Assembly (NCBI RefSeq): GCF_024971095.1
Contig: NZ_CP069717.1
Span: 2,294,001-2,358,000 of the forward strand
Origin: Microbacterium neungamense
GTDB taxonomy: Bacteria > Actinomycetota > Actinomycetes > Actinomycetales > Microbacteriaceae
Direction: 5' to 3'
Length of the DNA: 64,000 bases
Shown here: positions 3,833-63,388 of the stretch, one piece after another
Position numbering within the stretch: the stretch's first letter is position 1
How the letters are laid out: each line of letters begins with the position of its first letter
Translations under genes and position numbers: made by a program
Notes under the pieces: generated by a model
Told to the model about the DNA's origin: nothing
What the model saw: only the letters and a program-made list of their open reading frames with translations
Database searches by the model: none

Positions 3833-5019
3833 GATCCGCTCCGCATCGACGCGGAGCCCGCGGGACGCAGCATCTCCCGCCCGACGATGAGTCGCATGAT
3901 CTCGTTCGTCCCTTCCAGGATCTGATGCACGCGCAGGTCGCGCACGACCTTCTCGATCCCGTAGTCCTGAAGGTACCCGTAGCCGCCGTGCAGCTGAAGG
4001 GCCCGGTTGGCGACGTCGAACCCGGCATCCGTGGCGAAGCGCTTCGCCATCGCGCACCGCATCGTGGCGTCCGGCGCCTTCTCGTCGACCGCCTGCGCGC
4101 CGTCGCGCACCATGAGCCGCGCGGCCTGCAGGTCGGTGCGCATGTCGGCCACCGCGAACAGGATGGACTGCTTCTCGGCCAGCGGCTCCCCGAACGCGAC
4201 CCGCTCGTGCACATACTGCACCGCGCGGTCGAGGGCCCACTGCGCACCGCCCAGTGAGCAGGCGGCGATGTTGAGGCGTCCGCCGTTCAGCGCCGACATC
4301 GCGATCGCGAACCCGCGCCCCTCCTCGCCGAGCACGGCCGATGCCGGCACCCGTACGCCGTCCAGGATGACCTGGCGCGTCGGCTGCGCGTGCCAGCCCA
4401 TCTTCTTCTCCGGCACGCCGAAACTGAGGCCCTCGGCGTCGCCGGGGACGAGGAACGCGGTGATGCCCTTGGCGCCCGAGCCGGGCTCGCCGGTGCGGGC
4501 CATCACCACGTAGACGGCGGCCTCACCCGCGCCCGAGATGAACTGCTTCACGCCGGTGAGCACGTACTCGTCGCCGTCCCGCACCGCGCCGGTGACGAGG
4601 GCGGCGGCATCCGACCCCACCCCGGGCTCGGTCAGACAGTACCCGCCGAACTCGGCCATGGCGGTGAGATCCGGCAGCCAGCGGGCGCGCTGGGCGTCGT
4701 CGCCGTAGGTGTCGATCATCCACACCACCATGTTGTGGATCGAGATGTACGCGGCCACGGCGGGGTCGGCCTTCGCGAGCTCCTCGAAGATCGCGACGGT
4801 GTCCACGCGGGAGAGCCCGGAGCCGCCGGACTCCTCCCGGACGTAGACGCCGCCCAGGCCGAGCTCGCCCGCCCGCCGGAGCGCCTCGCGCGGGAAGGTG
4901 TGGTGCTCGTCCCAGTCCAGGGCATGCGGGGCGAGCTCGGTCTCGGCGAAGTCGCGGACCGCGGCGAGGATCGCCTCGCGCTCCTCGGTGCTGACGGTGG
5001 GGGTCATGGTGTCTGACAT
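3829..5019 (-). CDS. Acyl-CoA dehydrogenase, probably isobutyryl-CoA
   Basis: 396 residues with the three acyl-CoA dehydrogenase domains. The FAD/substrate signature YCLTEPGVGSDAAA is at 127-140 and the catalytic glutamate is Glu369 in QILEGTNEIM. The C-terminal flavin motif LHGGYGYL is at 343-350. ATG 5019 was preferred because a GAGACG ribosome-binding-like sequence precedes it; MTPTVS four codons later is an alternative. Between mmsA and mmsB it should oxidise isobutyryl-CoA to methacrylyl-CoA, with electrons going to EtfAB. Substrate is inferred from context. Confidence 0.9.
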   Translation of the reverse strand: MSDTMTPTVSTEEREAILAAVRDFAETELAPHALDWDEHHTFPREALRRAGELGLGGVYVREESGGSGLSRVDTVAIFEELAKADPAVAAYISIHNMVVWMIDTYGDDAQRARWLPDLTAMAEFGGYCLTEPGVGSDAAALVTGAVRDGDEYVLTGVKQFISGAGEAAVYVVMARTGEPGSGAKGITAFLVPGDAEGLSFGVPEKKMGWHAQPTRQVILDGVRVPASAVLGEEGRGFAIAMSALNGGRLNIAACSLGGAQWALDRAVQYVHERVAFGEPLAEKQSILFAVADMRTDLQAARLMVRDGAQAVDEKAPDATMRCAMAKRFATDAGFDVANRALQLHGGYGYLQDYGIEKVVRDLRVHQILEGTNEIMRLIVGREMLRPAGSASMRSGS

Positions 5020-36839: not shown

Positions 36840-37700
36840 ATGAAGTTCGCGCGACTGGGAGAGGCCGGACACGAGATCCCGGTCGTCATCGTCGGAGAGC
36901 GCACCTACGATCTGCGCGCCGTGACATCGGATGTGGACGGCGCGTTCCTCGCCGACGACCCGGTCGGCCGCACGCGGGCGGCCCTCGACGCCGGGGCGCT
37001 GCCGGAACTGGATGGCGCGGCGTCGCTGCGGATCGGCGCGCCGATCGCGCGGCCGAGCGCGGTGTTCTGCATCGGGCAGAACTACGCCGCGCACGCGCGC
37101 GAGTCCGGTTCCGAGCCGCCGGCCATGCCGATCGTGTTCCTGAAGACGCCGAACACGGTCGTCGGCCCGAACGACGCCGTGACCATCCCCCGCGGCAGCG
37201 AGAAGACGGACTGGGAGGTCGAACTGGGCGTCGTGATCGGCCGGCGGGCGGCGTACCTCGCCGCGCCGGAGGAGGCGGATGCCTGCATCGCCGGCTACGT
37301 GACCGCGAACGACGTGTCGGAACGGACCTTCCAGCTGGAGGTGTCCGGCGGGCAGTGGTCGAAGGGCAAGATCGCCCACGGGTTCAACCCGACCGGTCCC
37401 TGGCTGGTGACCCCCGACGAGGTGGACACGAGCGGGCTGAGGCTGCGGAGCTGGGTGAACGGCGAGCCCCGGCAGGACTCGGACACCTCGGACATGATCT
37501 TCGACGTGCGCACGATCGTGCACCACCTGTCGCAGTTCGCGACCCTCGAGCCCGGGGATCTCATCCTCACCGGCACGCCGCAGGGGGTGGCGCTCGGAGG
37601 CCGGTTCCCCTACCTGAAGCCGGGGGATGTCGTGGAGGTGGAGGTGGAGGGGCTCGGCCGGCAGCGGCAGGAGTTCGTCGCCTGGGAGGAGCAGCGATGA
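36840..37700 (+). CDS. Fumarylacetoacetate hydrolase family protein (fucose pathway)
   Basis: 286 residues from ATG 36840, with AAGGAG just upstream. The FAH fold is clear: FCIGQNYAAHARESG (about 78-92), metal ligands in DWEVELGVVIG (about 122-132) and DVSERTFQLE, and LILTGTPQGVALG (about 241-253). In the non-phosphorylative L-fucose route an FAH enzyme cleaves 2,4-diketo-3-deoxy-L-fuconate to pyruvate and lactate. The neighbouring SDR and fucD support that substrate. It heads a two-gene operon overlapping the SDR by 4 bp. Confidence 0.88.
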   Translation: MKFARLGEAGHEIPVVIVGERTYDLRAVTSDVDGAFLADDPVGRTRAALDAGALPELDGAASLRIGAPIARPSAVFCIGQNYAAHARESGSEPPAMPIVFLKTPNTVVGPNDAVTIPRGSEKTDWEVELGVVIGRRAAYLAAPEEADACIAGYVTANDVSERTFQLEVSGGQWSKGKIAHGFNPTGPWLVTPDEVDTSGLRLRSWVNGEPRQDSDTSDMIFDVRTIVHHLSQFATLEPGDLILTGTPQGVALGGRFPYLKPGDVVEVEVEGLGRQRQEFVAWEEQR

Positions 37701-38449
37701 GCGGTCAGGTCGAGGGCCTGGTGGCGATCGTCACCGGCGGGGCATCCGGCATCGGCGCCGCGATCGCGCGCCGCCTGCACGAGGAGGGCGCGCAGGTCGC
37801 CGTGCTCGACCGCGACATCACGGGGGCCGACCCGCGCTTCGCCGCGTTCACGGCCGACGTGTCGGACCGCGACTCGGTGGACGCGGCCGTCGCGGCGGTC
37901 GGCGAGCGCTTCGGACGCATCGACATCGTGATCAACAACGCCGGCGTCGGGGCGCAGGGCGACATCACCGCGAACGACGACGACGAGTGGGCGCGGGTGC
38001 TGTCGATCAACGTCACCGGCATCGCCCGGGTGACCGGGGCCGCGCTGCCCTGGCTGCGGAAGTCGCCCGCCGCGGCGGTGTGCAACACGGCATCGATCGC
38101 CTCCACCACCGGCCTGCCGCAGCGCGCGCTGTACTCGGCGTCGAAGGGTGCGGTCTCGGCGCTGACCCGCGCGATGGCGGCGGATCACCTGCGCGAGGGC
38201 ATCCGCGTCAACGCCGTCAACCCCGGCACCGCCGACACCCCGTGGGTGGGGCGCCTGCTCGACGCCGCCGCCGACCCCGAGGCCGAGCGCGCCGCGCTCC
38301 AGGCGCGGCAGCCCCACGGCCGCCTGGTCTCCCCCGACGAGGTCGCCGGCGCGGTGCTCTACCTCGTCAGCCCCGCATCCGGGTCGACCACCGGCACCTT
38401 CATCGAGGTCGACGGCGGGATGGCGCAGCTGCGGCTGCGCGCGGAGTAG
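37697..38449 (+). CDS. SDR oxidoreductase, probable 2-keto-3-deoxy-L-fuconate dehydrogenase
   Basis: 250 residues, classical short-chain dehydrogenase. Cofactor motif TGGASGIG (13-20), NNAG (about 81-84), catalytic Ser in NTASIASTTG and Tyr/Lys in YSASKGAVSAL (about 152-162). Coupled to the FAH gene by an ATGA overlap, it would oxidise 2-keto-3-deoxy-L-fuconate to the 2,4-diketo compound cleaved by FAH. Downstream come palindromic repeats and the broken DUF559 gene. Confidence 0.88.
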   Translation: MSGQVEGLVAIVTGGASGIGAAIARRLHEEGAQVAVLDRDITGADPRFAAFTADVSDRDSVDAAVAAVGERFGRIDIVINNAGVGAQGDITANDDDEWARVLSINVTGIARVTGAALPWLRKSPAAAVCNTASIASTTGLPQRALYSASKGAVSALTRAMAADHLREGIRVNAVNPGTADTPWVGRLLDAAADPEAERAALQARQPHGRLVSPDEVAGAVLYLVSPASGSTTGTFIEVDGGMAQLRLRAE

Positions 38450-38458
38450 CCGGGCGAC

Positions 38459-38610
38459 GCGCTCAGGTCGCGAAAAGTGCCGCTTCCGGGTCGGCCGACG
38501 CGCTCAGGTCGCGAAAAGTGCCGCTTCCGGCCTCGCGAAGCGGCACTTTCTGCGACCGGAGCGGGGAGACGGATGCCGTAGCGACACTTTCTGCGACCCG
38601 AGCGCGCCGC
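38459..38610. repeat. Composite palindromic repeat, copy A
   Basis: The full unit (38501-38610) starts CGCTCAGGTCGCGAAAAGTG, with an inverted part AAGCGGCACTTTCTGCGACC, then GGAGCGGGGAGACGGATGCC and a second CACTTTCTGCGACC. A partial copy of its first 30 bases precedes it at 38459-38489. A closely similar unit in the same orientation is at 43803-43912. Together they flank the split DUF559 gene. Confidence 0.85.
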
Positions 38611-38682
38611 CTGCCCCGCGTTCGCCCCGCCCCCCTGTGGATAACGTCCCCGCGCGCCGCCGGGACGTGCCACGGTGCTGCG

Positions 38683-38834
38683 ATGAGGTCTCCGCAACCG
38701 CTCCCCGAGGGGCTCGGCCGCCGGTTCTCCGTGCAGCAGGCACGGGATGCCGGTGTCGGCGCCGGCCGCCTCCGTCGCACCGATCTCGACCGGCCGTTCC
38801 ACGGCGTGCGCACCCGGCGGCAGCCTACTGGTAG
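38683..38834 (+). pseudogene. DUF559-type endonuclease gene, N-terminal piece
   Basis: About 45 residues from ATG 38683 match the start of actinobacterial AbiEi-domain/DUF559 proteins: RFSVQQARDAGVGAGRLRR and DLDRPFHGVRTR. Similarity stops near 38822, and the frame ends at 38834 in unrelated sequence. The matching C-terminal end is at 43644-43787, beyond the metal-resistance island. About 190 residues of a typical 280-300 are missing altogether, so the insertion was accompanied by loss of the gene's middle. Confidence 0.75.
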
Positions 38835-38920
38835 CACCGATTGTTGCTGAGTCGCGTATTCACGAGCAATCGGTAGCTGTGCCGCTTGTTGGTGGAGCGC
38901 TGATTGATCAGCCGGTGCTG

Positions 38921-38926
38921 TATAGT
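38921..38926 (+). promoter_or_regulatory. -10 element of the cmtR operon, leaderless
   Basis: TATAGT, seven bases, then ATG 38934. No ribosome-binding site is present. Confidence 0.65.
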
Positions 38927-38944
38927 TCAGTGCATGCTGACTAT
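38922..38944. promoter_or_regulatory. CmtR operator
   Basis: Imperfect palindrome ATAGT-T-CAG-TGCATG-CTG-ACTAT. Arms match completely apart from one extra T. It covers the -10 element, the predicted transcription start and the first codons of cmtR, so the bound regulator would block initiation directly. Confidence 0.7.
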
Positions 38945-39293
38945 TGCTTCGCGTCTCGACGTCATGAACCGGCTTGGCCGGGCCATGGCCGACCCGACGC
39001 GCTCTCGGATCCTGATGACGTTGCTCGGGGGACCGAGCTACCCGGCGGTGCTCTCACGTGAGCTCGACCTAACTCGCTCGAACGTGTCGAACCACCTCAC
39101 TTGTCTGCGAGACTGCGGGATCGTGGTCGCTGAGCCTGAGGGCCGCCAGACTCGCTACGAGATCGCTGACCCGCATCTTGCTGCTGCGCTCGTCGCGCTC
39201 GTGGATGTGACGCTGGCTGTAGATGAGCACGCACCTTGCGTGGACTCAGCGTGCACGGTGCCGGGCTGCTGCGGTACAGGGGCGGACGCGTGA
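38934..39293 (+). CDS. cmtR: CmtR-type Cd(II)/Pb(II)-sensing ArsR/SmtB repressor
   Basis: 119 residues. The winged helix contains DLTRSNVSNHLTCLRDCG, the recognition helix carrying Cys57 and Cys61; Cys102 lies in VDEHAPC. These three positions are exactly the metal ligands of Mycobacterium tuberculosis CmtR. The tail has extra cysteines at 107, 112 and 113. It represses the downstream efflux genes and releases DNA on binding Cd or Pb. Its TGA overlaps the GTG of the ATPase gene. The gene is leaderless, and its operator overlaps the start. Confidence 0.93.
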   Translation: MLTIASRLDVMNRLGRAMADPTRSRILMTLLGGPSYPAVLSRELDLTRSNVSNHLTCLRDCGIVVAEPEGRQTRYEIADPHLAAALVALVDVTLAVDEHAPCVDSACTVPGCCGTGADA

Positions 39294-41203
39294 GTGCGGC
39301 GTGTGGCTGCGAGCACGAGCCTGCCGTTGCGGCGGATGAGCCCGAAGAGGTGGAGCGGCCCTGGTGGAAGGACCGCGGGATCATGGTGCCGGTCTTCTCC
39401 GGTGTCGCGTTCCTGACAGGTCTGGTCTTCGAGTGGTCCGTTCTCGAGATCCCGGCGCTCATGCTGTTCTGGGCCGGCCTGTTGCTGGGCGCGTCGACGT
39501 TCACGCCCGGCGCGATTCGCAAGCTGTTCAAGGGCAAACTCGGCATCGGGCTGCTGATGACGATCAGCGCGATCGGCGCGGTCATCCTCGGCTACGTCGA
39601 AGAGGCCGCGGCGCTGGCGTTCCTGTACTCAATCGCAGAGGCCCTCGAGGACAAGGCGATGGACCGCGCCCGTGGCGGACTGCGGGCGCTGCTGAAGCTC
39701 GTGCCGGAGACGGCGACAGTGCTGCGCGACGGGGTGTCCGTGCAGGTTCAGGCGAAAGATCTGACGGTCGGCCAGGTCATGGTGGTCCGTCCGGGTGAGC
39801 GGATCGCGACCGACGGGATCGTCCGGGCGGGGCGTTCCAGCCTGGACACCTCGGCGATCACCGGAGAGTCGATCCCGGTTGAGGTCGAGCCCGGCGCTGC
39901 GGTGTCGGCCGGCGCGATCAACAGCGCCGGCGCGCTGGAGGTCGAGACGACCGCGGCGGGCACCGACAACTCGCTCACCACGATCGTCGAGCTGGTGGAG
40001 CAGGCGCAGACCGAGAAGGGCGAGCGGGCGCGTCTCGCCGACCGGATCGCGCGGCCGCTGGTCCCGGGTGTGCTGATCCTCGCCGCCCTCGTCGCGATCA
40101 TCGGGTCGCTGCTGGGCGACCCGGAGGTATGGATCACCCGCGCGCTCGTCGTGTTGGTCGCCGCCTCTCCGTGCGCGCTGGCGATCTCTGTGCCGCTGAC
40201 GGTCGTCGCCGCGATCGGCGCGGCGAGCAAGTTCGGCGTGATCATCAAATCCGGCGCGGTGTTCGAGCGCTTCGGAACGGTCCGGCACGTCGCGGTCGAC
40301 AAGACCGGCACCCTCACCCGCAACGAGCCCGCGGTCACCGCCGTCCTCACCGCGGACGGCGTGACCGAGACGCAGGCACTGGCCTGGGCGGCGGCGCTGG
40401 AGCAGCACAGCACGCACCCCCTCGCCTCCGCGATCACCGCCGCCGCCCCGGGCGTTCCCGCGGCCGCGGACGTGACCGAACAGGCCGGACACGGCATCGA
40501 AGGCACCGTCGACGGCGTGACGATCACCGTCGGCAGCCCCCGCTGGCTCGACGCCGGCGAGCTCGGCGACCGGGTCGCGCTTCTTGAGGAACAGGGCATG
40601 ACCGTCGTGATCGTCCACCGCGGTGGAGTGGCGGTCGCCGCGATCGGTGTCCGCGACGAGCTGCGCCCCGAAGTCCCCGAAGTCGTCCGCACGCTCGCGG
40701 ATCAGGGTATCGGCGTGACGATGCTCACCGGGGACAACGCCCGCACTGCGCGTGCGCTGGCTGCGCAGGCGGGGATCGGTGACGTGCGCGCGGAGCTGCG
40801 TCCCGAGGACAAGGCGGCCGCGATCGGCGAGTTGTCGAAAGCGGGATCGGTCGCGATGATCGGCGACGGCATCAACGACGCCCCGGCCCTGGCGTCCGCG
40901 GACATCGGCATCGCGATGGGGGCGACCGGCTCCGATGCAGCGATCGAGTCCGCGGACGTGGCCTTCACCGGCCATGACCTGCGTCTCATCCCGCGGGCGT
41001 TCGACCACGCCCGGCGGGGCCGGCGGATCATCAACCAGAACATCATCCTGTCGCTGCTGATCATCACCGCACTGCTCCCGCTGGCGCTGTTCGGTGTGCT
41101 GGGACTTGCGGCTGTCGTCCTGGTCCACGAGGTCGCGGAGGTCATCGTGATCCTCAACGGCCTGCGCGCCGCACGCCCCCGCACACCACGGTTGGCGAGC
41201 TGA
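39290..41203 (+). CDS. Heavy-metal translocating P-type ATPase (Cd/Pb/Zn type)
   Basis: 637 residues from GTG 39290, which overlaps the cmtR stop. P-type motifs: actuator TGES (191-194), the membrane metal site AASPCALAIS with Cys295, phosphorylation site DKTGTLT (Asp337), the P1B marker HP in STHPLAS, and GDGINDAP. The N-terminus has only a short CGC stretch and no HMA domain, as in mycobacterial CmtA/CtpG. The C-terminal membrane region contains VLVHEVAEVIVILNG. It exports Cd(II)/Pb(II) and perhaps Zn(II) under CmtR control. Confidence 0.93.
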   Translation: MSAACGCEHEPAVAADEPEEVERPWWKDRGIMVPVFSGVAFLTGLVFEWSVLEIPALMLFWAGLLLGASTFTPGAIRKLFKGKLGIGLLMTISAIGAVILGYVEEAAALAFLYSIAEALEDKAMDRARGGLRALLKLVPETATVLRDGVSVQVQAKDLTVGQVMVVRPGERIATDGIVRAGRSSLDTSAITGESIPVEVEPGAAVSAGAINSAGALEVETTAAGTDNSLTTIVELVEQAQTEKGERARLADRIARPLVPGVLILAALVAIIGSLLGDPEVWITRALVVLVAASPCALAISVPLTVVAAIGAASKFGVIIKSGAVFERFGTVRHVAVDKTGTLTRNEPAVTAVLTADGVTETQALAWAAALEQHSTHPLASAITAAAPGVPAAADVTEQAGHGIEGTVDGVTITVGSPRWLDAGELGDRVALLEEQGMTVVIVHRGGVAVAAIGVRDELRPEVPEVVRTLADQGIGVTMLTGDNARTARALAAQAGIGDVRAELRPEDKAAAIGELSKAGSVAMIGDGINDAPALASADIGIAMGATGSDAAIESADVAFTGHDLRLIPRAFDHARRGRRIINQNIILSLLIITALLPLALFGVLGLAAVVLVHEVAEVIVILNGLRAARPRTPRLAS

Positions 41204-41811
41204 TGCTCGCGACCATCGGCTCAGCGATCGGCCTGTTCGCTGCGACCAACATCGACGACATCGTCGTGCTCACGGTGCTGTTCCTTGCCTCCAGCCGGGG
41301 GAAGCCACGGCCGTGGCAGATCATTGCTGGCCAGTATCTCGGGTTCATCACCCTCGTCGTGATCAGCGTGATCGCCGCGCTCGGTCTCACGATCGTCCCG
41401 GACGAATGGGTGGGCTTCCTCGGTCTCATCCCGCTCGGCATCGGCATCTGGACCCTAGTGCGCGGCCTGCGCCGCAACGGCGACGATGATGACGACGACG
41501 ACAAGATCAGCGCAGTAGGCCTGTGGGGCGTCGCGGGGATCACGATCGCCAACGGGGCGGACAACATCTCCCTCTACACGCCGATCTTCCGCACCAGCAC
41601 TCCCGGCGACGTCGTGATCATGATCGTCGTGTTCCTGATCCTCGTCGCCGTCTGGTGTGCCGCCGGACGCCTGATCGGCACGCACAAGGCGGTCACCGAG
41701 ACGCTCGAGCGCGTCGAGCACTGGCTCGTCCCGGTCGTGTTCATCGGCCTGGGCCTGTTCATCCTGATCGAGTCCGGCGTCATCGTCCGTCTCTTCGAGG
41801 TCCTCGCATGA
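41203..41811 (+). CDS. cadD: CadD family cadmium resistance transporter
   Basis: 202 residues with about six membrane helices. It opens MLATIGSAIGLFAATNIDDIVVLTVLF, with the TNIDD motif of the CadD/LysE-like family, repeated in altered form as TIANGADNISLYTPIF in the second half. A charged loop of seven consecutive aspartates (about 93-99) lies between halves and might bind cations. Its ATG overlaps the ATPase stop. It would add a second, ATP-independent route for Cd efflux. Confidence 0.9.
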   Translation: MLATIGSAIGLFAATNIDDIVVLTVLFLASSRGKPRPWQIIAGQYLGFITLVVISVIAALGLTIVPDEWVGFLGLIPLGIGIWTLVRGLRRNGDDDDDDDKISAVGLWGVAGITIANGADNISLYTPIFRTSTPGDVVIMIVVFLILVAVWCAAGRLIGTHKAVTETLERVEHWLVPVVFIGLGLFILIESGVIVRLFEVLA

Positions 41812-42332
41812 CTCCGGACACGAACGCAGACGTTGAGTCGGCATCGGAACAGCGGCCGCAGAGGGGGCGCTGGCGGCTCACTGCCTGGGCACTCCTGATC
41901 GCCGTGGTCGTCGTCTTCATCGATCAGGGGACGAAGGCATGGGCCGAGGCCACTCTGTCGGAGCACGAGCGCATCCCGCTGATCGGCGACCTGCTCGGCC
42001 TGCAACTCGCCTACAACCCCGGCGCGGCATTCTCCTTCGGCGAGGGCTCCACCTGGGTGTTCGCTCTCATCGCCGTCGCGGCCACGTTCACCGCGATCGT
42101 GTTCGCCTTCCGAGTCCGACGCCCCGGATGGGCGATCGTGATCGGTGCGCTCGGCGGGGCCGCAGCCTCGCACGCCGGCGACCGGCTTTTCCGCCAACCA
42201 GGATTCGCGCAGGGGCACGTCGTGGACTTCCTCGCCTACGGCAACTGGTTCATCGGGAACGTCGCCGACATCGTCATCGTCATCGCCGCGATCGCCGGAG
42301 CGCTCCTGATGCTCCGCAGCGCCGAGAACTGA
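41808..42332 (+). CDS. lspA: Lipoprotein signal peptidase (LspA) paralogue of the metal island
   Basis: 174 residues with four membrane helices and both catalytic aspartates: Asp125 in HAGDRLF and Asp154 in NVADIVIVI. NPGAAFSFG (70-78) and GHVVDFLAYGNWF are family motifs. The Asn of the usual GNxxDR motif is His122 here. The ATG overlaps cadD by 4 bp. No lipoprotein gene lies in the island. LspA paralogues are known to travel with cadmium determinants, and this one is probably accessory to the chromosomal housekeeping copy. Confidence 0.88.
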   Translation: MTPDTNADVESASEQRPQRGRWRLTAWALLIAVVVVFIDQGTKAWAEATLSEHERIPLIGDLLGLQLAYNPGAAFSFGEGSTWVFALIAVAATFTAIVFAFRVRRPGWAIVIGALGGAAASHAGDRLFRQPGFAQGHVVDFLAYGNWFIGNVADIVIVIAAIAGALLMLRSAEN

Positions 42333-42343
42333 GAGGACCAACC

Positions 42344-42655
42344 ATGGAGATCACCCTGCAGTACTTCGACGGCTGCCCCAACTGGGAGGCGCTCGACCAG
42401 CGGCTCGCTCAGGTCATCGATGGCCGATCAGATGTCCGGATCACGCATCAGCGAGTCGAGACCGCTGAGGACGCGGTGCGACTTGGGTTCCACGGGTCCC
42501 CGACCGTGCTCGTCGACGGTGTGGACCCCTTCGCTGATGAGCACGCCACTGTCGGGCTCGCCTGCAGGGTGTTCCGCACCCCAGCGGGGCTCGCCGGGTC
42601 GCCAACCGTCGACCAGCTGCGTGTAGCGATATCGGGCCAAGGCTCCGAGGTGTGA
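42344..42655 (+). CDS. Small thioredoxin-fold protein of the metal operon
   Basis: 103 residues preceded by GAGAGGACC. It opens MEITLQYFDGCPNWEAL. This is the thioredoxin-like start seen in proteins linked to mercury and other metal loci, but the second cysteine of CxxC is replaced by Trp (CPNW). SPTVLVDGVDPF provides the cis-proline region. With only one cysteine in the motif it cannot act as a classical disulfide reductase; it may bind metal or act as a chaperone. It is the last plus-strand gene of the island. Confidence 0.75.
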   Translation: MEITLQYFDGCPNWEALDQRLAQVIDGRSDVRITHQRVETAEDAVRLGFHGSPTVLVDGVDPFADEHATVGLACRVFRTPAGLAGSPTVDQLRVAISGQGSEV

Positions 42656-42659
42656 TGCT

Positions 42660-43642
42660 CGGTCAGGCATGGGTGGAACGGAGTGCCGGATAGTCGGACC
42701 ACTCACCGCCGGCGAGACGCGATGCCTCGCGGATGCGGCGACGAGGTTGACCATCGCATTCCCGAGGATTTCAGGGAGTTCGATCGGCTCGGCCCCGACG
42801 GTGAGCGTTACGGGCCGCGAGTTCGTATCGACCTGTGCCCGTGTGATCGTGACGATGCGGGTCAGCTGGATCCCGTAGAGCAGCACGAGGAGGCCCGCGG
42901 CTCGGGTCTTCGGGTCCATGTCGGCAGCGGAGAGGAACCTGCGGGCCATTTGCCATCGGTGGTCGGAGGCGTAGTCTCGGCCTTCGAGACGATGGGATCG
43001 GAACTCGACCCGAACGGTGCTCAGCCGGTGCTTTCGCAGCCAGCGAGTGAATGGTGCCAGCGCGTCGCGTTGGCTCGGCGAATCGGTCAGATACGCGTCA
43101 AGTCGGCGCTGCGGGAAGGTCGCCAACGTCTCCTGCTGCGACCGGATCTCTCGAAGGAACGCGGCGCAGTACTTCAGCGCAGCCCGTTGCCTCAGGAAGC
43201 CGGAAGCAGGGCTGGACGCGCTGCGCAGGGTCCGAGCGGAACGGAGGAGCTCCCAGGTGCAGTAGCGGCGCAGTATCAGCCGGTCTTCAGGATCCTCGAT
43301 GTCATCGAGCCAGCCGTTGAGCCAGTGGTCGAAACGCGTGCTCTCGACGTCAAGCTCCGGCAGCACGCCGGAACGGACCAGCAGTGAGAGGAGGAGCGCG
43401 ACCGACTGTCCCGAGCGGGCTCGGGTGATGATCGCCTCGGCGGTGAGTGGCAGGGTCCCGTCCGCGAGCTCGCGGAACACCATCGCGCACTTGCTCTTGT
43501 GTAGCCAGCGTTCAAGCGACGCCGCTTTGCCATGGTGCGTGAGCAGATAGTCAGCAAGGGGGTGGAGGTCCGCGCGGATCTCTCCCGCATCGTCGGCGAG
43601 AAGCTGTTGGATCGCGACTGGCCGGCGGCACTCGACGCAGAC
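42660..43642 (-). pseudogene. Tyrosine-recombinase-like gene, truncated at both ends
   Basis: The frame is open from about 43642 down into the thioredoxin gene. Recognisable parts run from CRRPVAIQQLLADDAGEI through FDHWLNGWLDDIEDPEDRLI and RYCTWELLRSAR to LLVLLYGIQLTRIVTITRAQ and PIELPEILGNAMVNLV. This matches the N-terminal and early catalytic part of a large actinobacterial site-specific recombinase family. An ATG is available at 43483, but homology starts 50 codons earlier. The C-terminal half with the HxxR and tyrosine residues is absent, and the 5' end breaks off at the DUF559 remnant. It is therefore not expected to be active. Confidence 0.75.
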
Positions 43643-43643
43643 G

Positions 43644-43787
43644 CTGCACCACTCCCGCTACGCCGCGGACGTGGAGCGGATGGCGCGGCTGCGCGCGGCG
43701 GGCTGGACGGTGATCGAGGTCACCAGCGTGCTGCTCGCACGCCCCGACGTGCTCATCGAGCGCATCCGGGCCGCGTTGGCCGCGTGA
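43644..43787 (+). pseudogene. DUF559-type endonuclease gene, C-terminal piece
   Basis: A 47-codon in-frame remnant ending TGA 43785-43787: LHHSRYAADVERMARLRAAG, then WTVIEVTSVLLARPDVLIER. This is the end of the Vsr-like DUF559 nuclease domain. The matching N-terminal piece is at 38683. The exact left boundary is uncertain by about 20 bp. Confidence 0.72.
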
Positions 43788-43802
43788 GCGCGCGAGGCGG
43801 CG

Positions 43803-43912
43803 CGCTCAGGTCGCGAAAAGTGCCGCTTCCGGCGCCGGAAAGCGGCAGTTTCTGCGACCTGAGCGGGGAGACGGATGCCAGAGCGGCACGTTCTGCGACC
43901 TGAACAGAGCGC
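43803..43912. repeat. Composite palindromic repeat, copy B
   Basis: Direct-oriented near copy of 38501-38610. It shares CGCTCAGGTCGCGAAAAGTG, GCGGGGAGACGGATGCC and TTCTGCGACC. Differences are scattered substitutions, such as GCGCCGGA replacing CCTCGCGA in the loop. Confidence 0.85.
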
Positions 43913-43924
43913 CCCGCCGGGCGG

Positions 43925-44788
43925 TCACCGGATGCCGTAGAACCTGGCCGCGTTCCCCCAGAACAGCGCGTCGAGGTCGAGCTCGCGCGCCCGCGCCCAG
44001 GTCGCGACCGCCTCGAACCAGGCGGCGCGCGACGTCCGGTCGTAGCCGGCGGGGCCGACGGCGGACACCGGCCAGTCGCTGCCCCACATCAACCGCTCCG
44101 GGCCGAACGCCTCGAGCGCGGCATCCAGGAACGGCGCGAGCTGGGCGGCGTCCCAGTCCCCTCCGGCCTCGGCGGGCAGCCCGGACAGCTTGCCGCAGAC
44201 CTGCGGATGCCGCGCGAGCTCGCCGAGATCCCGCCGCCACGATGCAGCGGGTTCGAGCGGGGCGCGGGCCGTGCCGACCGCCGGCTTGCCGAGGTGATCC
44301 AGCACGATCGGCAGCTCGGGCACCGCGGTCGCGAGCGCCGCGACGTCCCCGATGCCCGGCGCGCGCACGCAGGCGTCGAAGGTCCACCCGCGCGCCGCGA
44401 CCTCGCGCGCCCCGTCCAGGAACACGGGCGTGGTCGCGAGGCCGGGCGGCTCATCCTGCAGCAGATGACGGATGCCGGCGACGAGGCCGACCCCGTCGAG
44501 CGCCGCCAGGTGCTCCGAGGTCTCGCGGCCGCGGTCGAGCCGCGCACCGGCCACGATCGCCCGCACGCCCACCTCGTCGGCGATCTCCGCGACCCAGCGG
44601 GCCTCGTCCAGGTGCTGCCCCTCGACGCACTCCGCCTGTACGAACACCGCCGCCTCGGCACCGGCGTCACCGAGCCGCGCGGCGGCGAGCTCGTCCGCCG
44701 CGAACCGGCCGTCCAGGGCGCCGTCGAGCCAGTCGTAGTCGAGCCGGCCGGGGTCCCAGAGGTGCAGGTGCGAATCCAGAACGCGCAT
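43925..44788 (-). CDS. Amidohydrolase, probable L-fuconolactonase
   Basis: 287 residues from the ATG at 44788. TIM-barrel amidohydrolase-2 family: VLDSHLHLWDP (3-13) with His-X-His, IVLDHLGKPAVG (about 173-184), and RLMWGSDWPVSAVG (about 241-254) with the catalytic Asp. The WD(P) ending of the first motif and SDWP are those of L-fucono-1,5-lactonases and L-rhamnono-lactonases. It would open L-fuconolactone for fucD. It diverges from the FadR gene with a shared operator, and is separated from the other fucose genes only by the split DUF559 gene and the island. Confidence 0.87.
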   Translation of the reverse strand: MRVLDSHLHLWDPGRLDYDWLDGALDGRFAADELAAARLGDAGAEAAVFVQAECVEGQHLDEARWVAEIADEVGVRAIVAGARLDRGRETSEHLAALDGVGLVAGIRHLLQDEPPGLATTPVFLDGAREVAARGWTFDACVRAPGIGDVAALATAVPELPIVLDHLGKPAVGTARAPLEPAASWRRDLGELARHPQVCGKLSGLPAEAGGDWDAAQLAPFLDAALEAFGPERLMWGSDWPVSAVGPAGYDRTSRAAWFEAVATWARARELDLDALFWGNAARFYGIR

Positions 44789-44827
44789 GCGCCCATCCTG
44801 CCCCAGGTTCGCGCAGCAGCGCACCAG

Positions 44828-62633: not shown

Positions 62634-63266
62634 TCAGACCTCGCGGCGCAGTTCGCGTCCGGCGGCGAAGCGGCCGAGAGCGCCGGTGCCGGCGAGAGCG
62701 CGGACGAGCAGCCAGCCGACGACGCCGGCGAGGACGGCGCCGGAGACGACGAGGGTGCCCAGGTAGATGGCGTTGAACTCCGCGGTCTTCAGGATGTTCG
62801 GGGAGCTGCCGTAGAACAGCTCGAACACCCAGGCCGCCACGGCGGCGCCCACGCCCGCGAGCATCGCGACCGGCAGGCCGAAGCGGCGGTAGAGGAACGC
62901 GGCGAAGACCAGCTCCGCGCCGAGCCCCTGGACGAGGCCGGAGAGCACGGTGGAGACGCCCCACACGTTGCCGATCAGCATGGAGACGATCGCCGCGACG
63001 AGCTCGACCAGCAGTGCGGCGCCGGGCTTGCGGATCACCAGCCCGCCGACGACCCCGCCGAGCAGCCAGATGCCCACGGCGATGCCGCCGAGGCCGGGGG
63101 TCAGGCCGTCGGCGGCCGTGAACCAGGCGTAGCCGATCGTGTTCCACACCCAGAACACCAGGCCGATCGCGACGCCGAGCACGCTGGCCACGACGATGTC
63201 GACGACGCGCCAGGTGTACGTGCGCGGCGTGGTCGCGGACGCGGATGCGGACGGGGATGCGTTCAT
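62634..63266 (-). CDS. ECF transporter S component (YkoE family)
   Basis: 210 residues, about six membrane helices. The sequence after a Ser/Ala-rich start, TWRVVDIVVASVLGVAIGLV, and the GAELVFAAFLYRRFG and WVFELFYGSS segments are characteristic of the YkoE family. As the substrate-binding subunit it would capture a thiamine precursor. The TPP riboswitch ends 10 bp before the ATG, and the ribosome-binding site GGGAGGAGA forms its 3' end, so binding could hide it. Confidence 0.9.
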   Translation of the reverse strand: MNASPSASASATTPRTYTWRVVDIVVASVLGVAIGLVFWVWNTIGYAWFTAADGLTPGLGGIAVGIWLLGGVVGGLVIRKPGAALLVELVAAIVSMLIGNVWGVSTVLSGLVQGLGAELVFAAFLYRRFGLPVAMLAGVGAAVAAWVFELFYGSSPNILKTAEFNAIYLGTLVVSGAVLAGVVGWLLVRALAGTGALGRFAAGRELRREV

Positions 63267-63275
63267 CAGATCTCC

Positions 63276-63363
63276 TCCCTGCGCTGGCATGATCCAGATC
63301 AGGTTCGACGGTCGAAGCGCGGTTCGCTTCCTCTCAGCCCGGCTCGCCGGACTCCCGTGGTTG
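63276..63363 (-). ncRNA. TPP riboswitch (THI element)
   Basis: Read on the minus strand it contains the conserved pieces in order: ACGGGAGTCC, GGCTGAGAGG, CGAACCTGATCCAGATCATG and CCAGCGCAGGGAG. These are the core sequences of the thiamine pyrophosphate aptamer. It lies directly before the YkoE-type gene and would repress uptake when TPP is plentiful. Confidence 0.93.
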
Positions 63364-63388
63364 TGACCCCGATCATAACCGGATTCGG

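Follow-up and report, generated by a model that had tools for sequence, protein, structure and literature searches.

How did a cadmium/lead resistance block come to lie within a DUF559-like gene in the middle of a putative L-fucose locus of Microbacterium neungamense, and why are the middle of that gene and a large part of the block's own recombination machinery missing? The stretch of DNA analysed here (the window) comprises 64,000 nt, positions 2,294,001 to 2,358,000 of contig NZ_CP069717.1, in a host genome of 2.55 Mb that forms one contig. The features on which the argument rests are listed below in window coordinates, with the evidence for each.

37697–38449, plus strand: SDR dehydrogenase of the putative L-fucose locus, left neighbour; open, and adjoining the same spot in relatives
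38453–38611, no strand assigned: REP-like palindromic repeats between the SDR gene and the DUF559-like gene
38683–38825, plus strand: N-terminal piece of the DUF559-like gene, 47 codons plus 2 nt, from alignment to intact relatives
38826–38862, plus strand: transposon left end (TACTGGTAGC...), near-identical in other copies
38934–39293, plus strand: cmtR, Cd(II)/Pb(II) ArsR-type repressor (NF047906, 176.1 bits, cut-off 150)
39290–41203, plus strand: Cd-family P-type ATPase (TIGR01512, 490 bits, cut-off 313.5)
41203–41811, plus strand: cadD cadmium transporter (PF03596 above cut-off; TIGR00779 147.2 bits, below its cut-off of 181.65)
41808–42332, plus strand: lspA, signal peptidase II (PF01252 above cut-off; NCBIfam matches below cut-off)
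42344–42655, plus strand: small thioredoxin-like 'DF family (seleno)protein' (NF049942, 66.8 bits, slightly below the cut-off of 70)
42663–43641, minus strand: remnant of a 649-aa zinc-ribbon-like recombination protein, damaged at both ends, from alignment to L056 9572–11521
43641–43642, no strand assigned: deletion junction at which the right part of the element and about 230 host codons are lost, from alignments to L056 and to intact relatives
43642–43787, plus strand: C-terminal piece of the DUF559-like gene, from alignment to intact relatives
43792–43917, no strand assigned: REP-like palindromic repeats between the DUF559-like gene and the amidohydrolase gene
43925–44824, minus strand: L-fuconolactonase-type amidohydrolase, right neighbour; open (PF04909 above cut-off; NF052480 141.4 bits, below its cut-off of 400)

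The block itself (38826–43641) holds five open Cd/Pb genes and a damaged recombination-gene remnant, the same content that the initial annotation had described as cmtR, a P-type ATPase, cadD, lspA, a thioredoxin-like gene and a broken recombinase. For cmtR the ATG at 38934 was chosen as the start (the listed open reading frame begins at TTG 38904), and for the P-type ATPase the GTG at 39290 (listed start TTG 39236). Because the metal genes are open, the most likely present function, as judged from their protein families, is CmtR-controlled, Cd/Pb-induced efflux, in which the P-type ATPase and CadD would export the metals and the signal peptidase would play an accessory part. A second cmtR-like region, 73% identical, lies elsewhere in the same genome (2453720–2453950, L032).

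The flanking genes are all open and carry the Pfam domains expected for the L-fucose pathway: around the block we find FucU, aldo-keto reductase, enolase-type dehydratase, FAA hydrolase, SDR, amidohydrolase and a GntR/FCD regulator. No NCBIfam match listed for the flanking L-fucose genes reached its curated cut-off, and the pathway name is our reading of the gene content. With that qualification on the name, the block sits inside an L-fucose locus whose catabolic genes are undamaged, as first proposed. No tRNA genes were found within the window, and its sole Rfam match above the gathering threshold is a TPP riboswitch (63259–63368, minus strand).

The interrupted gene was reconstructed from relatives sampled through the amidohydrolase gene, which had some match in 187 of 198 genomes of the genus. 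We compared the best 30 of these 187 loci, one of which is the window itself, leaving 29 relatives. Six of the 29 carry an intact, uninterrupted DUF559-like gene of 325–339 residues at the same place, between the SDR and fuconolactonase genes, where the initial annotation had suggested looking for it in relatives that lack the island. In 17 others the gene is absent, with the SDR and amidohydrolase matches 54–364 bp apart, and the remaining six could be placed in neither class from the flanks fetched; in one of these (L023) the C-terminal piece matches on its own at another place in the locus. The DUF559-like gene is optional within the genus, which fits an insertion causing little harm.

Because in all six relatives one window piece aligns to the front and the other to the back of the intact gene (53–69% identity for the N-terminal piece, 64–79% for the C-terminal piece), these alignments identify them as the two ends of one gene, with boundaries now placed at 38825 and 43642. 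The notion that they derive from separate genes draws on the shortness of each fragment and on scores below the Pfam cut-offs; it is contradicted by the alignment of both to one intact gene at the same place in six relatives, and we give it virtually no credence. The two pieces without an island, an arrangement that would speak against an insertion, occurred in none of the 29 relatives within the fetched flanks. The family name is likely right at a sub-threshold level: neither the window pieces nor five intact relatives gave a Pfam DUF559 or MTES_1575 match at or above the cut-off, and the DUF559 scores of these five, the ones scanned among the six, were 14.3–18.7 bits against a cut-off of 20.6. 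Measured against the six intact genes, the window gene lacks 229–236 residues, so that the loss, first put at about 190 codons, is about 230.

REP-like palindromic repeats occupy the gaps on both sides of this gene. Allowing up to two mismatches, the whole genome has 13 copies, seven of which flank the DUF559-like gene, and none was found in nine related genomes searched. The idea that these repeats mark DUF559-like genes found no support: the other six copies lie at three places, none of them at the genome's seven MTES_1575 matches. One of the clusters lies between citrate synthase and DEAD-box helicase genes, as read by eye.

What the block is becomes apparent from its copies elsewhere, which the initial annotation had suggested seeking. 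A DNA search with the block across 366 genomes of the genus recovered copies with the same left boundary, full 7.4-kb elements among them. Nine left ends, the window's included, could be aligned; they are near-identical from the same base onward, and their left flanks are unrelated, save for one common to G078 and G099. A left-end pattern searched with up to two mismatches gave 21 matches in 20 of the 366 genomes, ten with no or one mismatch and nine with one common variant sequence; a reversed control pattern gave one match in each of 12 genomes, so that two-mismatch matches need support of their own, and those in G219 and G254 may be chance. Judged by these alignments, the window block makes up the left 4.8 kb of a discrete transposon of 7.4 kb. 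The full copy nearest to it, in Microbacterium sp. USTB-Y (L056, the same copy as L068), carries the same cargo, measures 7,399 bp and defines the right end of the element as ...ACAGTTGCATTCACTGCAACATGCGAGGGTT.

Scanning named genomes with the tyrosine recombinase of the element gave 33 loci, six of which hold the full element with both ends (L068–L071, L074 and L075). Five of them come from Microbacterium (two), Pseudoclavibacter, Arthrobacter and another member of the Microbacteriaceae; the sixth is on a contig assigned to Verrucomicrobia, a binning that we suspect to be wrong. Full copies are also present in G351 and G089, and full-copy lengths range from 7,399 to 7,414 bp. At eight further loci (L076, L079, L080, L081, L091 and L094–L096) the core matches and the cargo region does so partly or not at all, so that across copies a variable cargo lies beside a conserved core. 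The presence of full copies at different sites argues for movement by the core genes. L081 holds a head-to-tail pair, in which a second, different element begins with its left end directly after the right end of the first (11275/11276 on the reverse complement). No near match to the core, only distant relatives, was found in the plasmid collection. A phage origin was considered and discarded: ten phage records match the cmtR/ATPase/cadD part only.

To examine insertion, we joined the two flanks of 11 copies. At five of the 11 joined sites a gene can be read uninterrupted through the junction, exact to the base and free of duplication: the full element inserts cleanly. Three joins (L070, L075 and L080) restore a Y-family polymerase, L070 reading SSNYELYGDLSARVM^EYLDRHSLATEIYSIDEAF, and two (L068 and L071) restore cpaF, L068 reading RLHVAIA^DVVRDGWAVNIRKF; both gene names were read from motifs. 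The other six joined sites gave no restored gene; they include L081, where the next element follows directly, and L079, where the right flank on its own reads as cpaF. Taken singly, flanks at L072, L079 and L085 read as cpaF and those at L076, G099 and G078 as polymerase, the last two with the same flank. Tn554, too, inserts without target duplication.

Against this background the window copy is lopsided: its left boundary is the transposon's own conserved end, and its right boundary is an internal point of a long gene. It is identical to L056 at 3,884 of 3,900 and 921 of 924 positions (99.6% over 3.9 kb), compared with 77% for the best long match of the adjoining gene in the sampled relatives (best 30 of 187), and this near-identity beside such divergence points to acquisition by recent transfer. 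The match stops at the base corresponding to L056 10746. To the right of this base 2,384 bp of the element are absent, and with them the right end, the genes for the tyrosine recombinase and the XRE regulator, and the front of the zinc-ribbon-like gene, all of which are present in full copies. The remnant of the zinc-ribbon-like gene has in addition an internal deletion of 196 bp (the difference between two alignment offsets to L056; junction 42717–42722), which damages its C-terminal end. The window copy has no intact core gene for its own movement and is immobile unless helped in trans.

Right-hand loss is found in other copies too, with G280, G233, G322, G366 and others stopping inside the core. 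The truncated elements of G280 (L058) and G233 (L065) end, as read by eye, in the middle of an acetate kinase gene, with the same junction in the two genomes. In three more copies, L063 (G099), L057 (G078) and L064 (G172), alignment with the long gene is interrupted near element position 4,600; G099 has about 1.45 kb of extra DNA there, probably an insertion sequence, G172 lies at contig ends and the G078 match stops.

We consider it highly probable that the present locus arose by clean insertion followed by a one-sided deletion. A 7.4-kb transposon of the XER-module kind with Cd/Pb cargo would have inserted cleanly at codon 47 of the DUF559-like gene between the SDR and fuconolactonase genes. 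A later one-sided deletion of about 3.1 kb would then have begun within the element and reached roughly codon 277 of the host gene, taking the right 2.4 kb of the element with its mobility genes and the middle of the host gene and leaving the metal genes open. A single deletion of this kind accounts for the loss of the mobility genes as well as of the host codons, and we infer that the right-hand loss was a single event after insertion. The original right flank is lost at this site, and no genome was found with a complete element inside the same DUF559-like gene; the case for clean insertion here is built on the conserved left end and on the clean full copies elsewhere. The initial annotation had concluded that the event was not a clean integration, a view that gives way to a left boundary formed by the element's own end, at the same base as in other copies, and to five full copies that inserted cleanly. 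What survives of that interpretation is a Cd/Pb island in one DUF559-like gene that is intact in some relatives; the figure of 190 codons does not, and in all likelihood neither does the unclean integration.

Two other courses of events could be imagined for the right boundary. In one, close to the view of the initial annotation, an already truncated 4.8-kb block on incoming DNA would have been exchanged for the host gene's middle part in a single step, through illegitimate recombination or with the help of homology. Truncated copies do exist, and those of G280 and G233 break off 4 bp away from the point where the window copy does, but their right flank differs from the window's; moreover, a left boundary exactly at the transposon's own end is unexpected from random replacement, and the five full copies inserted cleanly. 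We regard this course as improbable.

We assign a similarly low likelihood to an internal false right end near 43641, used in insertion or in aberrant excision, by which the deletion would be recombinase-made and not random. Stops at element positions 5015 (window), 5019 (G280 and G233) and about 4985 (G366), all within about 35 bp, would agree with such an end, whereas other copies stop at about 4605, 5410, 6147, 6338, 6419, 6484, 6892 and 7217 (positions approximate, the alignments being of 76–89% identity, and 6147 near a contig end). By rough reckoning, two of some 11 stops spread over 3 kb would fall within 4 bp of each other by chance with a probability of 10–20%; G280 and G233, having a common flank, count as one event; and clean insertion at a false end would leave the lost host codons unexplained. 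By the same rough reckoning the clustering of stops near 43641 is not significant as a deletion hotspot.

The core of the element, on the minus strand in L056, encodes the 649-aa zinc-ribbon-like protein, a 111-aa XRE-type regulator and a 376-aa tyrosine recombinase. In the full copy L056/L068 these three genes run in one direction, as in XER modules, and the window copy keeps part of the gene for the zinc-ribbon-like protein, the third in the module order. The core genes are not full-length in all six full copies; in L074 the listed recombinase open reading frame has 340 aa. In the shorter recombinase, R202/R203, K235, H314, R317, H340 and Y349 are invariant in 12 sequences, and we take these R, K, H, R, H and Y residues to be catalytic. 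The host genome of the window also holds a distant relative of this recombinase gene at 752164–753119 (L132; 67% identity over about 950 bp). Alongside the two genes for recombination-related proteins, the remaining core gene encodes an HTH_26 XRE-type protein.

The 649-aa protein has 24 invariant cysteines in 12 CxxC pairs. Pfam, NCBIfam and PDB sequence searches found no recombinase domain in it, and a profile comparison with the shorter recombinase, using shallow alignments, gave no match. A few of its relatives are named 'site-specific recombinase XerD' or 'site-specific integrase' in public sources; among the plasmid matches listed, six of 25 have recombinase or integrase names and most are called 'hypothetical protein'. 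A speculative and rather unlikely reading is that the partner protein of this family is a multi-zinc-ribbon factor with no working recombinase, which would steer insertion to fixed codons of cpaF and the Y-family polymerase gene and use further sites, the DUF559-like gene among them, as a fallback. On this reading the machinery might also cut neighbouring DNA at a false end inside the element.

By core content as read from sequence, the element is a member of the XER modules. The portion of the 2018 report available to us describes these modules from Antarctic Arthrobacter plasmids as a tyrosine recombinase, an XRE regulator and a second recombinase with variable cargo, 7.5 kb long in two of three cases and sited at umuCD (PMC6305408). 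The element studied here has the same core order, variable cargo and an association with umuC/umuD-type genes; it differs from the modules as described there in that their cargo is for tellurium and this one's for cadmium, and in that they lie between umuC and umuD and copies of this element inside the polymerase gene (PMC6305408). Protein for protein, its core shares 41%, 46% and 26% identity with that of pA2H2. A search of the pA2H2 stretch for the right-end motif, allowing up to four mismatches, found nothing, and a left-end candidate there (one match, five mismatches) was rejected as an end, as it falls within the recombinase gene.

The element also resembles the Tn554-related actinobacterial class, short of strict Tn554 membership. 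It has the R/K/H/R/H/Y residues in the shorter recombinase and shows no target duplication (five of 11 joined sites). The part of a 2012 survey available to us defines a class of Tn554-related actinobacterial transposons that pair an abnormally long recombinase with one of normal length (PMC3414803); in common with that class, mostly found in Actinobacteria, our element has a long protein (611–828 aa in the class) beside a shorter recombinase (about 350 aa in the class) (PMC3414803). The two are set apart by description of the third gene, which in the survey is TnpC-like where present and here is of the XRE-type HTH kind (PMC3414803), and the survey table gives no third gene for the Famint36/41 pairs (PMC3414803). 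Overlapping resistance gene sets, with clusters of a cmtR-type regulator, P-type ATPase and lspA, occur on Cryobacterium pA28BH2, which has a tyrosine recombinase and an HTH gene upstream of the metal cluster and no cadD in its listing, and on Rhodococcus pREL1, whose metal-gene order is unlike this element's. The available part of a report on Brevibacterium islands lists cmtR and lspA and no such element (PMC12467314). No description of this cadmium element was found in the literature searched, which lay largely outside subscription journals; it is a newly resolved case of a kind of mobile element already known.

The locus offers a base-level view of how a metal-resistance transposon would turn into a fixed chromosomal island, entering a dispensable gene and then shedding its mobility half. 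For a class of actinobacterial elements that the available part of the 2018 report termed putative (PMC6305408), exact ends, a duplication-free insertion rule and two recurrent target codons can now be given. With these known, such islands become recognizable even where the recombinase is gone.
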